From NCBI GenBank assembly GCA_021796435.1, contig JAJYXM010000016.1, positions 1,305,580-1,369,579 on the forward strand: a stretch of DNA of 64,000 nucleotides. Reading direction: 5' to 3'. Position 1 is the first letter of the stretch, and each line of letters begins with the position of its first letter. The notes beneath the pieces are model-generated. The model ran no database searches and was not told the origin of the DNA. It saw only the letters and a list, made by a program, of their open reading frames with translations. Position numbers and translations under genes: made by a program. This DNA is from a bacterium (GTDB lineage: Bacteria > Patescibacteriota > Patescibacteriia > 2-12-FULL-60-25). Shown piece by piece: positions 46,621 to 53,068 of the stretch.

Positions 46621-47244
46621 ATGGAAGACAAGCCAGCCAGACCCCCGCTCTATGGACAACGGGACTTGTTCAAGGAATTGGTGGAAGACTTCCGTAAGAC
46701 ATGTGAGGCCGGTGGCTCAAAGGACGATTTCGAAGAGCTCGCCGCTATGGGTCTAGGCATCATGAGTCAGGTCGGGATATCCGAACAAGATGCCTTGGAG
46801 CAGGCCGGCCTAAGCATCGGTGCTTCAGGCGCAATCATCCACCGGTGGATCACCGACCCGAGTAAGACGCACTACGAGACCCTATGCAACGTCCTGGAGG
46901 GGATGCTGAGCGTCCTCGCTTCGAGCATCGGTGACCTCGAGACTGCGCTTGAGCTGATCGCCGAGGTGACCACAAAGAAGGCCCAGAAGGATGGGATGCC
47001 ACGCTTCCGCATCGTGGTGGAACAGCTCTGCAAAAAACTATCTGAGTACGGCTCTGATGAGCATCTCGCGCTGGTCGCCGATATCATGACCGAGGTGCAG
47101 AACCAAGCCGCCGAGGGCTACGAGAAGGAGTTCCGTAACCGCATCATCAGGCGGCTCAAGCAAGCCTTCACGGACATGCTGGGCAAGAAGCCGGCCGGCG
47201 AAGAAGCGACCACCGATCCCCCCACAGATACTCTGCTCAACTAA
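46621..47244 (+). CDS. Hypothetical 207-residue protein, possible HTH
   Basis: ATG at 46621 with AAGGAG upstream. Helical throughout. A section QAGLSIGASGAIIHRWITDPSKTHYETL has the shape of an XRE-like helix-turn-helix (LSIG.SG.IIHRWI), which would allow DNA binding; this is weak evidence. The C-terminal half (IVVEQLCKKLSEYGSDEHLAL, FRNRIIRRLKQAFTDMLGKK) is helical and basic. The tail is acidic and disordered. Monocistronic, with a terminator after it. Confidence 0.68.
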   Translation: MEDKPARPPLYGQRDLFKELVEDFRKTCEAGGSKDDFEELAAMGLGIMSQVGISEQDALEQAGLSIGASGAIIHRWITDPSKTHYETLCNVLEGMLSVLASSIGDLETALELIAEVTTKKAQKDGMPRFRIVVEQLCKKLSEYGSDEHLALVADIMTEVQNQAAEGYEKEFRNRIIRRLKQAFTDMLGKKPAGEEATTDPPTDTLLN

Positions 47245-47319: not shown

Positions 47320-47410
47320 ACCAGGGCTTATTTTGGAAAGGTTGGCTATCGCTCCTTCTTTCATGTTCAGTCCTATTCATGCGTTTCAGACGGGAAACCG
47401 GAGGGAAATC

Positions 47411-48280
47411 ATGCCGACAACGAGACTCGTCCATCAAGACCCTGACGCGCCGGCCGAGAAGCTGGCAGCGGAAGCCGAGGATTTCCTCGCGCTACACCCC
47501 GAGCTGCAGTTCATGGTCGAACTCCTGACCATCCTGCGAGAGCTCAAGCTCACTTGGTGGACGCCGACGCAGCGCCGTGAGGCCTACAACGCAGCGCAGC
47601 GCATGCGCGCCATCACCAACAAGTGGGTACGACAGCGCATAACGATGCAGCTCGCGGGCGCCAAGACCAATGCCGCGCTCAAGATGTCGCCTGATAAAGC
47701 TGCGGAGAACATCGACCTGGCGCTCGAGGCGGACGTGACCGCCGAGGAATTCGAGGACGCCTTCACTCCGGCTGAGCTGGTGCTCTACGGCAATCCGCAG
47801 CTCTTCTATGCGCAGTTCCGGCAAGCCATGCCGTGGATCGACGGGAGCGACGAACACCGACGATTGGTGGCTCACCTCATCGATTCGTTCCTCAAGCCGC
47901 GCGACGAACTCGGGAACCCGAAGACCAAGCACCTGCAGCCCATACTCACGCACAACCAGGTGCTCTCCGCTGTCCCACGTGCGGTGTGGCAGAAATGCAT
48001 CAAGCCCGACGTACTCGAAAAGGTCGATCAGCTGCTGCTCGAGAAGGAGAAGGAGAACCCCGAAGGACCGTTCCCCTACGCCAAGTACGTGATGTCCGTC
48101 GCGACAAGCGAGATCATCACACGCGACATAGCATTGCTGGACCTTTTCGGCATCTTCGAAGCCGCGGAAGAAGCCATGGGCTTCAAGCCGCTCGAAGCGA
48201 TCGCCGAAGTCGACGAAGAAGAACCGGCGCCGGACGAGACCGCATCAATTCCAGCCGAAGGGCAAGACCCAAAAGCCTAG
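47411..48280 (+). CDS. Hypothetical protein, zero-frame product (289 residues)
   Basis: ATG at 47411 with GGAGGG upstream. Helical soluble protein: LALHPELQFMVELLTILRELK, WWTPTQRREAYNAAQRMRAI, FEDAFTPAELVLYGNPQLFYA, WIDGSDEHRRLVAHLIDSFLK, YAKYVMSVATSEIITRDIALL. It ends with an acidic linker (EVDEEEPAPDETASIPAEG) and TAG at 48278. The acidic linker continues naturally in the -1 frame, so this is likely the short form of a 588-residue protein made by frameshifting at CCCAAAA (48268-48274). No family is recognised. Confidence 0.7.
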   Translation: MPTTRLVHQDPDAPAEKLAAEAEDFLALHPELQFMVELLTILRELKLTWWTPTQRREAYNAAQRMRAITNKWVRQRITMQLAGAKTNAALKMSPDKAAENIDLALEADVTAEEFEDAFTPAELVLYGNPQLFYAQFRQAMPWIDGSDEHRRLVAHLIDSFLKPRDELGNPKTKHLQPILTHNQVLSAVPRAVWQKCIKPDVLEKVDQLLLEKEKENPEGPFPYAKYVMSVATSEIITRDIALLDLFGIFEAAEEAMGFKPLEAIAEVDEEEPAPDETASIPAEGQDPKA

Positions 48281-48322
48281 AGGCGCTCGCGACCGAAGGT
48301 CCTGGTCCGCCACAAGGCGAGC
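48268..48322 (+). promoter_or_regulatory. Candidate programmed -1 frameshift signal
   Basis: Slippery heptamer C CCA AAA in the zero frame, one sense codon (GCC) before the TAG stop. Ten nt later a stem GCTCGC (48285-48290) pairs with GCGAGC (48317-48322), enclosing a GACC-gaa-GGTC hairpin (48291-48301). The -1 frame is then open for 300 codons. Confidence 0.65.
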
Positions 48323-49176
48323 CAGAATCAACAGACGCGGGCGCCCTCGCGCCGGCAGAGGATGAGATAGCTTGGGGACAGGATACGGACGACGGTCAGC
48401 TCGAAACGGTCAGACCCTTGGCACGGCCGAACGACGGTCCGCAAGAAGAACCGTGGGAGACGCCGCCGCTGGATGCATTGCCTTCGACCGTGGCAGCAGA
48501 TGGCTCTCCAGGCACACCTGGCGTCGATCCGGAAGTCAATGACCTGGTTGACGCCGCGCTGACTCCGGTCGAACCGCCTTCCGCAGCCACAACAGTCGAG
48601 GTCTCAGCTGTCGAGATCGACGTCGATGAGCTAGGTCTACCGGACGAGAGCGCTGAACCGAGCGAGCCCGGCGTCATCGCAACACGACCCACGGGCTATA
48701 TAGGTCCAGCCACCTTCGCTTCCGTGCCACGTGCCCCAGGTGCGAGCACACCGCCGGACGAGAACGGCACCAGCGTATCCTTCATCGTCCTCTCGACGCT
48801 CGTGCAAATAGCTGGAGTCGTCGGACGTGATCTGCAGGAGTTGGTGGAGAGCCTGTCCGATGAGGATGCGAGGTCCCTCAAGACCCTCCTGCTTGAGGGT
48901 CGATGGCCAGGTAACGAAGAGGTGACGCGCCAAGCCATCATCCATGCCATGCCGATACTGAATCCTGTGTACGCGCGACGCACGGGATGGACAGAGCTCG
49001 ATTTCAGGAGCATGAAGAACATCTTCCTGAAGGAGCTGGATCCCCCGCCGCCGGATGCGAAGAAAGCCAAGAAGAAGGTCGACATGCCCAGGAACGAGAA
49101 CCTGGTCAAGCTCGCGGCCAGGCTGCGCAAGCAACCGCCGCCAATGCCGGTCAGCGTGCCGCCTTCCAGGAAATGA
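48274..49176 (+). CDS. -1 frame extension of the frameshift gene (300 residues)
   Basis: Frame open from the slip site to TGA at 49176 with no start codon or Shine-Dalgarno sequence of its own near 48280. It continues the acidic, Pro/Ala-rich linker (GPPQGEPESTDAGALAPAEDE, LDALPSTVAADGSPG). It then forms a compact domain: VSFIVLSTLVQIAGVVGRDLQELV, LSDEDARSLKTLLLEGRWPGNEEVTRQAI, and ends in a basic Pro-rich tail (PRNENLVKLAARLRKQPPP). The region upstream in this frame is an Arg-rich shadow, so the switch must occur near 48270. A sequencing indel is the main alternative. Confidence 0.65.
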   Translation, partial: SLEALATEGPGPPQGEPESTDAGALAPAEDEIAWGQDTDDGQLETVRPLARPNDGPQEEPWETPPLDALPSTVAADGSPGTPGVDPEVNDLVDAALTPVEPPSAATTVEVSAVEIDVDELGLPDESAEPSEPGVIATRPTGYIGPATFASVPRAPGASTPPDENGTSVSFIVLSTLVQIAGVVGRDLQELVESLSDEDARSLKTLLLEGRWPGNEEVTRQAIIHAMPILNPVYARRTGWTELDFRSMKNIFLKELDPPPPDAKKAKKKVDMPRNENLVKLAARLRKQPPPMPVSVPPSRK

Positions 49177-49315: not shown

Positions 49316-50200
49316 ATGGAGGAAACAAGCGATCTCGGTCTCCTGGGCAAGCAGATCATGCTCGCGATCACGGCTTTCGGCGCAGCACCCGATACGGCGC
49401 TCTATTGCGCCGTGCGTGACGACTACTTCCGTGCCGACGAGTTGCTGACAGGTGATGGCAGGCGCAAGTTCCTGGCCTACGACAGCCTGCCTGGCTCGGA
49501 AGACATCAAGTCCATCGGCATCGACGAGAACACGCTCCTCTTGGAGCTTTCGCCGTGCGATGTCGAAACGCTCCTGACGTACGCCGATGAGCTGCCCAAC
49601 GGCGTCAGCTTCCGGAATGACGGCGTCTATCTCGGCCGGCGGAAGCTAGCCCATCTGGCCAAACCCAAGACGAAGCCGGATGAGATCCACGGGACCAGGG
49701 TCCTGTGGATGATCGACTGGCCCAAGCTGGGTCCGCAGGAGCTACGCACTGTGGTCGAGGTCTTTGACCTGGCGGATACCGTCGGCGCATATGAGTCCGA
49801 CCTCGGCGTAGACGAGGGAGTTACTCCGGTCGCATACGGAAAAAAGCCCAGCCTCGAGATGCGTCTTGGCCTGCAGTTCCAACTCATCCAGGAGCAGGTG
49901 CCGATCCTGGCGCTGCGCATCGAGCCCCGGGATGAGCAGCGAACGGAACAGCGCTTGGAGCTCACGCTCGAGCAGACGCTGCGCTTCGAAAGGTGGTTGG
50001 AGCGCAACCCCGAAGAAGCGATCGAAGAATATCTGGCAAACCACCCGACGCCACAGGGCGCGCGTCATCTGGCGAGCCTGATCCAGTTCAAGCTGGCGCG
50101 CGACGTGAAAAAGATCGCAGAACGCGAAGGCAGGCCGATCGACTGGCCAGAAGCGCGACGCATCGTGCGCAAGATCGCCAGAAGACAAAGCGCCGCCTAG
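49316..50200 (+). CDS. Hypothetical 294-residue protein
   Basis: The start at 49316 was chosen because GGAGAGGG lies just upstream and the promoter fits; the frame is open further 5' only as shadow. Alpha/beta N-terminal part (LLGKQIMLAITAFGAAPDTALYCAVRDDYFRADELL, LLELSPCDVETLLTYADEL, VSFRNDGVYLGRRKLAHL). Middle LWMIDWPKLGPQELRTVVEVFDLAD. C-terminal helical, highly charged (RTEQRLELTLEQTLRFERWLE, ARRIVRKIARRQ). No family is recognised. Monocistronic with strong terminator. Confidence 0.7.
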   Translation: MEETSDLGLLGKQIMLAITAFGAAPDTALYCAVRDDYFRADELLTGDGRRKFLAYDSLPGSEDIKSIGIDENTLLLELSPCDVETLLTYADELPNGVSFRNDGVYLGRRKLAHLAKPKTKPDEIHGTRVLWMIDWPKLGPQELRTVVEVFDLADTVGAYESDLGVDEGVTPVAYGKKPSLEMRLGLQFQLIQEQVPILALRIEPRDEQRTEQRLELTLEQTLRFERWLERNPEEAIEEYLANHPTPQGARHLASLIQFKLARDVKKIAEREGRPIDWPEARRIVRKIARRQSAA

Positions 50201-50330: not shown

Positions 50331-52025
50331 CTACCAGCTGCCTCCTCCGCCTCCGCCGCCGCCGCCTCCAGAGCCTCCGCCGGAGAAACCGGAACCACCT
50401 GAACCAGCCGAAGAAGGCGGAGAGAACGCTGCAGCTGAAGCGGTCGAGTGCATAGTATTCAAGCTCGAAGCCAGCATGACCGCGTTCATGGAAGAGACGT
50501 TGCCGGTCGCCCAATCTGGAGGCGGGATATTCATCGATGCGAATTGCGCCGCCCATTTGTTCTCGACACCGAACACGATGGCGTAGGGCAATAGATCCTG
50601 GAATTGCTCCGGCGTCCTCTCCGGTGCGTTATGGAAATCCATGCGGTCCTTTTCCGTGACAGAAAGGAACCATTTGAAGCCGTTGATGTCGGTCAGGAGC
50701 TGGATACCTTGAGCCGTGCGACGCGGCATGAACCAACCGAAGACAGCGATGATGAGACCTGTGAGGAAAGCACAGAAAACACCTAACGCACTTCCGCTGA
50801 AGAAGACGAAAAGGCCTCCGCCGACCAGGAAAGCGATCACGATATGGACCGTGCGGACGCTGACAGGGTTGGCGTCGAACAGGCCCATCTTATTGATCTC
50901 GGCAGCGACCTGCGTCTTGAACTTCGTGACCGTGGTGTAGAATTTGCCGTCCTGCAGATCTTCGACGGATTGCCGTTCGCCGTCCTTGAACAACCCGCTT
51001 AGGACGGTCTTTTCGTATTCGGCCAAAGCGCCGTCATCATCTTTTTGTTTGACGAAAGTAAAGGTCTGGGAATCCTTGAACAATCCTTTCTTTTCGCCGA
51101 ATTCGATCTTCAGGTAGCCGCGTCTGGCCAGATCGATGATGGTCGCCGTGATGGCGCGTTCCGGCACGGTGCCGTTGGTCATCGCTGCACCGACCAAAGC
51201 GGGCGTCAGGTGCTGCGGAGCTTCATATTCCGGTACGATGGTGTTGAGTTTGGGGTCGCGACCTTTGGTGTACCAGCGGAAGAACATGATGAGCAAAGCT
51301 GCCAACGGAAAGAAGACAGCAGCATTGTCACGGACGACCATCATGATCTTCTCGTACAGCGTCGGCTCGGGGAAGGTCCCGACAGGGAACCCATAGACGA
51401 CCGTCATGCCTTCGTAGGCATCAAGCACGCGCGTCGCGCTATAGACGGATCCGTTCATCTGGTTCTCCAGCCGGCAGGCTTTTTCGGTCGAACCATAAAC
51501 GCCGGTGAAACAATCCGTCGTGACGTCGCCTGTCGTGACATGGGATGGATAGACGAATGAGATCGACGCTTTCTCGATCGGTACAGACCAACCGTCTCCC
51601 GTTACGTTCCAGTACAGCTCGTCATGATCGGCGAAGAAATTCAGAGCGCGATCCGTGGCATAGCGGATAGTGTAGACGTGTACGCCGGTGATGGTCTTAT
51701 CGGCATCGCCGATCTTGATGTCTACGTTGCCCATGGAACGCGAGACCGAATATGGTTCCTCCTGTCCGTCGCGCTGGACGCTCAAGATCTCGAAACGATA
51801 ATTGTATTTCGAACCATCACGGTCGAAGACCTCCGGGATATAACGATAGATGCCGTGGCGATCGGCACTGCCGAAATCATAGGTGATCTTCTCCTCGATC
51901 AATAGGCGACGCCCTTGTTCGGGTCTCACCTGGACCGAAAAATCCTTGATGACTTCCTCAGCTGAGGCGGCTGCCGGCAGGGCAAAGAGAGCCAAAACGG
52001 CCAATAAGGCATAGATTTTTTTCAT
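50331..52025 (-). CDS. DUF2207 predicted membrane protein
   Basis: A 564-residue protein from the ATG at 52025, which begins a signal peptide (IYALLAVLALFALPAAASA). The N-terminal extracellular domain has ITYDFGSADRHGIYRYIP, VHVYTIRYATDRAL and ELYWNVTGDGWSVPIEKASI, the DUF2207 signature. Transmembrane segments lie at about 235-252 and 425-475. The cytosolic middle contains GTVPERAITATIIDLARRGYLKIE, a winged-helix-like element. The C-terminus is a Gly/Ser run (GSGGGGGGGG). Function unknown; widespread in Gram-positive and CPR bacteria. Starts 26 bp from the divergent PfkB gene. Confidence 0.92.
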   Translation of the reverse strand: MKKIYALLAVLALFALPAAASAEEVIKDFSVQVRPEQGRRLLIEEKITYDFGSADRHGIYRYIPEVFDRDGSKYNYRFEILSVQRDGQEEPYSVSRSMGNVDIKIGDADKTITGVHVYTIRYATDRALNFFADHDELYWNVTGDGWSVPIEKASISFVYPSHVTTGDVTTDCFTGVYGSTEKACRLENQMNGSVYSATRVLDAYEGMTVVYGFPVGTFPEPTLYEKIMMVVRDNAAVFFPLAALLIMFFRWYTKGRDPKLNTIVPEYEAPQHLTPALVGAAMTNGTVPERAITATIIDLARRGYLKIEFGEKKGLFKDSQTFTFVKQKDDDGALAEYEKTVLSGLFKDGERQSVEDLQDGKFYTTVTKFKTQVAAEINKMGLFDANPVSVRTVHIVIAFLVGGGLFVFFSGSALGVFCAFLTGLIIAVFGWFMPRRTAQGIQLLTDINGFKWFLSVTEKDRMDFHNAPERTPEQFQDLLPYAIVFGVENKWAAQFASMNIPPPDWATGNVSSMNAVMLASSLNTMHSTASAAAFSPPSSAGSGGSGFSGGGSGGGGGGGGGGSW

Positions 52026-52039
52026 AGCGACATAAATGG

Positions 52040-52045
52040 TAGAAT
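52040..52045 (+). promoter_or_regulatory. Extended -10 of PfkB copy 2
   Basis: TGG-TAGAAT ending 6 nt before the ATG at 52052; leaderless style. Confidence 0.5.
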
Positions 52046-52051
52046 ATACGC

Positions 52052-53068
52052 ATGAATAAAGCCACAAAAGCCAAAGCAGCCCGCTTCGGATATGATGTCG
52101 TGACCATAGGCGCAGCGACGCGCGACGTATTCGTGAAAAGCAGGCATTTCGACAAGATAAAATCCACTGCGGCACCGGACGGTTTCGAGGCTTGTCTGCC
52201 CATGGGAGCCAAGATCGAATTGGATGAGATCGCGTTCGAGACGGGCGGTGGCGCCACCAACGCGGCGACGACTTTCGCGCGCTTCGGTTTCAAGACAGGC
52301 TGCATCGCACGCATCGGACATGATGTGGGGGGAAAAGAAATAGAAGATCTGCTGAAACGCGAGGGGATCGACAAAAATCTGGTGCAATATGACCCGAAGC
52401 TAAGTACGGGCTATTCGATCATCCTTCTTGCAGGTGCGGGACATCGTGCGATCCTCACATCGCGCGGGGCAGCGCGCAAGATCGCCGAGAAGGAGATACC
52501 TTGGGAAAAGATGAAGACGCATTGGATATACGTGACAAGCCTGGGCGGCAACGAGAAACTGCTCAAAGATATATTCAGCTTCGCCAAAAAACATCTGGTG
52601 AAGATCGCCTGGAATCCCGGGGGCGCCGAACTTGAGATGGGGATGAAGAAACTGCTCCCCTATCTGATGCAATCCGATGTCTTGATCATGAACAAGGAAG
52701 AAGCAGGGTTGCTTTCCGGCCTGCCGTCGCGCCATGTGGACGGGCTGCTCAAAAAGATCGGCGCTTTGCCGCGCACGGCGCTCGTCATCACGGATGGCGA
52801 ACACGGAGCCTACCTGACGGCTCGTGGAGCGGTATGGCACGCTGCGGTAATGCCGGGAAAAGCGATAAACACAACGGGAGCCGGAGATGCATTCGGTTCG
52901 GCCTTCACTTCAGGCCTGATGAGGGAGGGAGATCTGGATGCGGCCCTGAAGATGGCCGCCCTGAATTCGCACGGAGTCGTGACCCACATGGGGGCGACGG
53001 CCGGCATCCTGGAGAGCTATCCGAGTCCACAAAAACGCGCACAAGCCAAGGTAAAACAACTTCGTTGA
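52052..53068 (+). CDS. PfkB-family carbohydrate kinase, copy 2
   Basis: A 338-residue ribokinase-fold kinase. ETGGGATNAATTFARFGFKTG near the N-terminus, GHDVGGKEIEDLLKREGID, TGYSIILLAGAGHRAILTSRG (substrate lid) and INTTGAGDAFGSAFTSGLM with the catalytic Asp and anion hole. Closest in style to adenosine/ribokinase-like PfkB members common in archaea and CPR; substrate not assigned. It overlaps promoter space with divergent DUF2207 and is followed after 1 nt by a BASS transporter, suggesting co-transcription. Confidence 0.9.
   Translation: MNKATKAKAARFGYDVVTIGAATRDVFVKSRHFDKIKSTAAPDGFEACLPMGAKIELDEIAFETGGGATNAATTFARFGFKTGCIARIGHDVGGKEIEDLLKREGIDKNLVQYDPKLSTGYSIILLAGAGHRAILTSRGAARKIAEKEIPWEKMKTHWIYVTSLGGNEKLLKDIFSFAKKHLVKIAWNPGGAELEMGMKKLLPYLMQSDVLIMNKEEAGLLSGLPSRHVDGLLKKIGALPRTALVITDGEHGAYLTARGAVWHAAVMPGKAINTTGAGDAFGSAFTSGLMREGDLDAALKMAALNSHGVVTHMGATAGILESYPSPQKRAQAKVKQLR

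Follow-up and report, generated by a model that had tools for sequence, protein, structure and literature searches.

Few cellular, non-mobile bacterial genes are, to our knowledge, proven to use -1 ribosomal frameshifting. The best slippery motif in E. coli is C CCA AAG, and this heptamer is also the slippery site of E. coli copA. The CPR (Patescibacteria) are tiny uncultured bacteria, known largely from metagenome assemblies. A literature search, with most subscription journals outside it, returned no earlier report of a ribosomal frameshifting gene from this group, and the literature joining recoding, frameshift and CPR concerned alternative genetic codes only. Cellular -1 frameshifting has been described for dnaX, copA, csoS2 and GeneTack clusters such as magnesium chelatase (PMC5009743, PMC3711429). 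In dnaX, a -1 site and its stimulators give rise to two forms, of which tau carries a C-terminal part that the short form, gamma, lacks; both polarities occur within this one gene family, and one dnaX variant needs the frameshift for tau (PMC5009743, PMC3711429). The chromosomal csoS2 of alpha-carboxysomes is a structural gene from which -1 frameshifting yields two isoforms, CsoS2A and CsoS2B; its site has a downstream hairpin of complex structure and seems to lack a Shine-Dalgarno stimulator, and in copA a -1 shift likewise gives a second product (PMC5009743). In the magnesium chelatase cluster it is the long product that needs the shift, and fused homologs are found in other species (PMC3711429). 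A -1 shift also produces the longer fusion product (OrfA-OrfB) of IS3/IS1-type transposases.

The locus described here lies in a stretch of 64,000 nucleotides of a CPR genome (the window; the genome is designated G000), and comparison with its relatives makes it highly probable that a single gene here is read by means of programmed -1 ribosomal frameshifting. It shares with dnaX, copA and csoS2 a cellular, chromosomal setting and two predicted products, with csoS2 a predicted downstream hairpin, and with magnesium chelatase a long product that would depend on the shift as well as fused homologs in relatives. The proteins themselves are unrelated to those of these systems. The heptamer here is C CCA AAA, as compared with A AAA AAG in dnaX, the poly-A runs of the tested chelatase sites, and the nearly identical site of copA, which differs in its last base (G). 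The shift yields the short product in copA and csoS2, whereas here a shift towards the long form is the commoner polarity; unlike dnaX, the locus has no clear Shine-Dalgarno stimulator at 9-14 nt, and no carboxysome genes were seen beside it.

The first ORF starts at an ATG at position 47,411, preceded by a Shine-Dalgarno sequence (GGAGGG, 47,400-47,405), and runs on the forward strand to 48,280, encoding a short product of 289 aa that is supported by sequence, an AlphaFold2 model and homologs. Its end reads GGG CAA GAC CCA AAA GCC TAG. Direct reading bore out the sequence-only reading in placing C CCA AAA (48,268-48,274) in the canonical X_XXY_YYZ register, with one sense codon separating it from the zero-frame TAG (48,278-48,280). 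It was equally right that the -1 frame stays open beyond this point for 300 codons (48,274-49,176, ending in the TGA at 49,174-49,176), that the products would measure 289 and 588 residues (288 + 300 for the long one, in which the first ORF is joined to the second), and that the -1 frame upstream of the heptamer is an Arg-rich shadow. The downstream part had also been said to lack a start codon, and none is found from the heptamer up to codon 50, which is TTG. The junction peptide predicted for the long product is EGQDPK-SLEALATEGPGP. The gene is present in a single copy, on a contig of 1.52 Mb in a genome rated 100% complete.

When 57 relatives were searched at the protein level, homologs of the N-terminal part turned up in 19 genomes, none of them outside the window's own family. 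A profile of this part matched 25 of the 41 genomes of the family, and among 381 genomes of the same class it gave no match beyond that family. Each homologous locus was inspected where its first ORF ends. In 13 family genomes, belonging to seven genera, the identical heptamer was found in register, followed by a zero-frame stop one or two codons on and by an open -1 frame. The stop comes after one codon in 12 genomes (G000, G001, G002, G004, G008, G011, G013, G016, G024, G027, G028 and G057) and after two in G035, while in a paralog from G004 it comes after six; in a fourteenth genome, G032, the heptamer is A AAA AAA. Examples of the junction are GAC CCA AAA GGC TGA in G001 (contig of JAVHLR010000001.1, isolate Ess09-17), AAC CCA AAA GCA TAG in G002 and TCC CCA AAA GCG TAG in G057. 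The -1 ORFs of the heptamer-bearing loci span 144-340 codons; that of G013 runs off the contig end after 22 codons, and the gene of G008 is probably split across two contigs.

Identity among the N-terminal parts falls to about 20%. Given each gene's own codon usage, the chance that synonymous choices produce the heptamer is 0.009 (0.9%) per sequence, or 2.5e-29 over 14 sequences if these are taken as independent. The branches of the family tree are long, with a median end branch of 0.87 changes per column, and it is therefore unlikely that seven identical bases persist by simple inheritance of unconstrained positions. Fructose-bisphosphate aldolase (fba) lies directly upstream of the gene in 14 genomes, of the fused and the frameshift type alike, which indicates that the locus is chromosomal and most likely vertically inherited.

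Downstream of the heptamer, after a spacer of 5 nt, a stimulatory hairpin is predicted at about 48,280-48,348, at -39.6 kcal/mol in a 70-nt window and with a z-score of about -5 against dinucleotide shuffles. The sequence-only reading had proposed a nested stem in which GCTCGC (48,285) pairs with GCGAGC (48,317) around GACC-gaa-GGTC. This stem is possible (-10.8 kcal/mol), but it is not the most stable structure, the 48,280-48,348 hairpin being much stronger. RNA structure was tested in the 14 loci with enough sequence by folding the 70 nt past the spacer. In all of them the predicted fold starts 5-8 nt after the heptamer (range taken as criterion, 5-9 nt), and the mean z-score is -3.3 at the slippery site as against -0.4 elsewhere in the same genes. 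The slippery-site window has the lowest z-score of its gene in seven of 14 genes (combined rank p 3e-11), and the folds weaken when synonymous codons are shuffled with the -1 peptide held constant (combined p 3e-12); these combined values, like the one given below for purine tracts, treat related sequences as independent. Against such recoded sequences, four hairpins (G016, G057, G008 and G032) do not reach significance on their own. The inner architecture varies by genus, but the 5' arm almost always opens with GGCG. In the consensus stem of three species of the window's genus (G000, G001 and G002), five pairs are changed on both sides, and several pairs are broken. Neither the heptamer nor the hairpin is accounted for by synonymous codon choice.

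A Shine-Dalgarno-like GAAGGG (48,257-48,262) lies 5 nt ahead of the heptamer, closer than the 9-14 nt of classical internal Shine-Dalgarno stimulators (PMC5009743). Similar purine tracts occur upstream in many loci, in weak excess (combined p 0.003) and at a variable spacing of 3-14 nt; GAAGGG is a possible candidate stimulator.

The C-terminal part is homologous across species, with an excess of differences at third codon positions. The same excess is seen in the 50 codons of linker that precede the first possible start codon, where G000 and G001 differ at 17, 14 and 25 sites at codon positions 1, 2 and 3, respectively, and linker motifs are common to G000, G001 and G002. A linker that is coding, combined with the lack of a start codon near the junction in many loci, argues for entry from the zero frame. 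AlphaFold2 predicts an all-helical N domain (residues ~10-265; mean pLDDT 89.7) followed by a short acidic Pro-rich tail. The -1 part is modeled as an acidic, Pro/Ala-rich, low-confidence linker of about 165 residues (pI about 4); beyond it come a helical domain of about 120 residues (48,766-49,131; residues ~170-290 of the -1 product, block means mostly 83-95) and a Pro-rich basic tail. Sequence searches of Pfam, NCBIfam, PHROGs and the PDB returned no credible match for either half, and the profile of the N part found no credible family match. A Foldseek comparison of the N model with the PDB gave nothing below E 0.9; with VIA-align its best match had a Z of 4.8 and an rmsd of 4.1 over 64 residues, and neither this model nor the C model found a confident fold match. 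An internal repeat in the N domain was not supported when its two halves were compared by hhalign. A dnaX or csoS2 homolog was rejected, as neither half matches Pfam or NCBIfam, and so was a phage tail assembly chaperone (G/GT), given the lack of a PHROGs match and the presence of fba as neighbor.

Whether relatives would show a plain ORF with no slippery site was also examined. Most retain the exact heptamer; four homologs (G020, G003, G023 and G007, with the G007 ORF truncated where the retrieved locus ends) form one continuous ORF with no C CCA AAA, and G020 and G023 each carry one other X_XXY_YYZ string close to the C-terminus. Such fused ORFs are expected if the long product is functional, and they show that some lineages can do without the short form. 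About five label changes between frameshift and fused types are needed on the tree. In two further loci, G014 (L043 2274) and a copy in G034 (L049 2337), heptamer and hairpin are kept and the polarity is inverted: the zero frame is open for 532 and 626 codons, respectively, and the -1 frame stops immediately (PKSL-stop and PKR-stop). The hairpin is weak against shuffles in G014 (z -1.5) and strong in G034 (z -4.8 in 45 nt). Judging by these frames, the short form would be the one made by a shift in either locus, which is the polarity of E. coli dnaX; each is represented by one genome, and a base error behind the inverted frames is possible.

The sequence-only reading had proposed a programmed -1 frameshift, and the comparison of relatives supports it, since most of them keep the heptamer, the near zero-frame stop, the -1 ORF and the predicted downstream hairpin. 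An assembly or sequencing indel, or a pseudogene, would mean that the locus is really one continuous, or dead, ORF. Errors do occur in assemblies of this kind and fused ORFs are present in some relatives, but the same break is found at the same heptamer in 14 genomes from independent assemblies, both halves retain a coding substitution pattern, and the probability left to this explanation is minimal. If reinitiation or coupling after the stop were responsible, two separate proteins would be made. The stop and the -1 ORF are indeed contiguous; in G001 the junction TGATG overlaps the stop TGA with an ATG of the -1 frame, where reinitiation could add to frameshifting, and in G013 and G016 a GTG lies within seven codons. 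However, in G000, G004, G008, G011, G024, G027, G028 and G032 the first ATG, GTG or TTG is met only 47-85 codons in, after linker sequence that is itself coding. Reinitiation would moreover leave the fixed heptamer and the fixed-spacing hairpin unexplained, and the fused homologs favor a single polypeptide; we regard it as improbable, even if it is the least so of these alternatives.

The fusion could also be made by transcriptional rather than ribosomal slippage, as poly-A slippery sequences can serve either mechanism (PMC3711429) and the G032 site has seven A. In bacteria, the runs on which transcriptional slippage has been described consist of 9 A or T (PMC5009743), and in all loci but G032 the run is just the AAAA within CCCAAAA; such slippage would require neither the CCC part nor the codon register nor the hairpin, and we give this mechanism a very small probability. 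Indel error, pseudogene, reinitiation and transcriptional slippage thus fail as general explanations. A mobile-element transposase of the IS3/IS1 type was rejected as well, there being no transposase domain in either half, a single copy, and a fixed place beside fba.

In the proposed programmed frameshift, the predicted hairpin would pause some ribosomes with tRNA-Pro on CCA and tRNA-Lys(UUU) on AAA. The paused tRNAs would then re-pair on CCC and AAA, tRNA-Lys(UUU) from the A-site AAA pairing perfectly again in the -1 frame, and decoding would go on in that frame; the remaining ribosomes would terminate at the TAG. The predicted outcome is a short product consisting of the helical N domain, and a long one in which this domain is followed by the acidic disordered linker, the helical C domain and the basic Pro-rich tail. 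Less certainly, both isoforms may be useful at a set ratio, perhaps by taking part as subunits in a complex of scaffold type; in view of dnaX and csoS2, a complex using both isoforms is the role that we favor.

The genome encodes tRNA-Lys with anticodons UUU and CUU, and tRNA-Pro with UGG, CGG and GGG; tRNA-Lys(CUU) was also present in six relatives checked. The heptamer may end in A rather than G because tRNA-Lys(CUU) is encoded, as the reader of AAG would pair poorly with AAA. In E. coli, C_CC.A_AA.A falls within the efficient V_VV.A_AA.R class (PMC4066793). A broader interpretation, which we offer tentatively, is that in this CPR-lineage family selection acts on dual-isoform production itself, with one gene yielding a short and a long form, the cassette being kept across two paralogous subfamilies, inverted in polarity at least twice and lost only by full fusion, with an A-ending heptamer matched to the two lysine tRNAs. 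The natural variants (the changed heptamer, the shifted stop, the inverted polarity and the fused forms) constitute a natural experiment on how recoding sites originate, flip and are lost. Plain ORF calling splits a real CPR gene in two at this locus, and an uncharacterised two-isoform protein family is flagged for study.

The specificity of the motif was addressed in the 41 family genomes, in which a scan for the pattern CCCAAAAGNNTRR gave about 95 hits. Of the CCCAAAAGNN-stop sites outside the gene family described here, about 40 were fetched, and long ORFs on both sides were found at just one; the others were set aside as chance occurrences rather than frameshift genes. The exception is on contig C4 of G002 (L085 2001), where CCCAAAA is followed by GCATGA and the end of a kinase-like ORF overlaps the ATG of a dUTPase-like ORF. 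As this ATG, located at the stop, belongs to the second gene itself, the pair looks like ordinary translational coupling.

Several features were observed around the gene and its paralogs. Contig C17 of G004 carries three adjacent N-domain paralogs (L048, L051 and L005; 2,668-5,935, reverse strand), and two of the three have a slippery cassette of their own. In the window, orphan genes lie on both sides of the frameshift gene on the forward strand, at 46,621-47,244 upstream and 49,316-50,200 downstream. They belong to no known family and have no match in the other fetched loci apart from G001, with 34% identity for the upstream gene and 67% for the downstream one. Further on, at 50,331-52,175 on the reverse strand, is a membrane-protein-like ORF whose C-terminal tail is long and rich in glycine (GGGGSGGGGGGGGGGSW).
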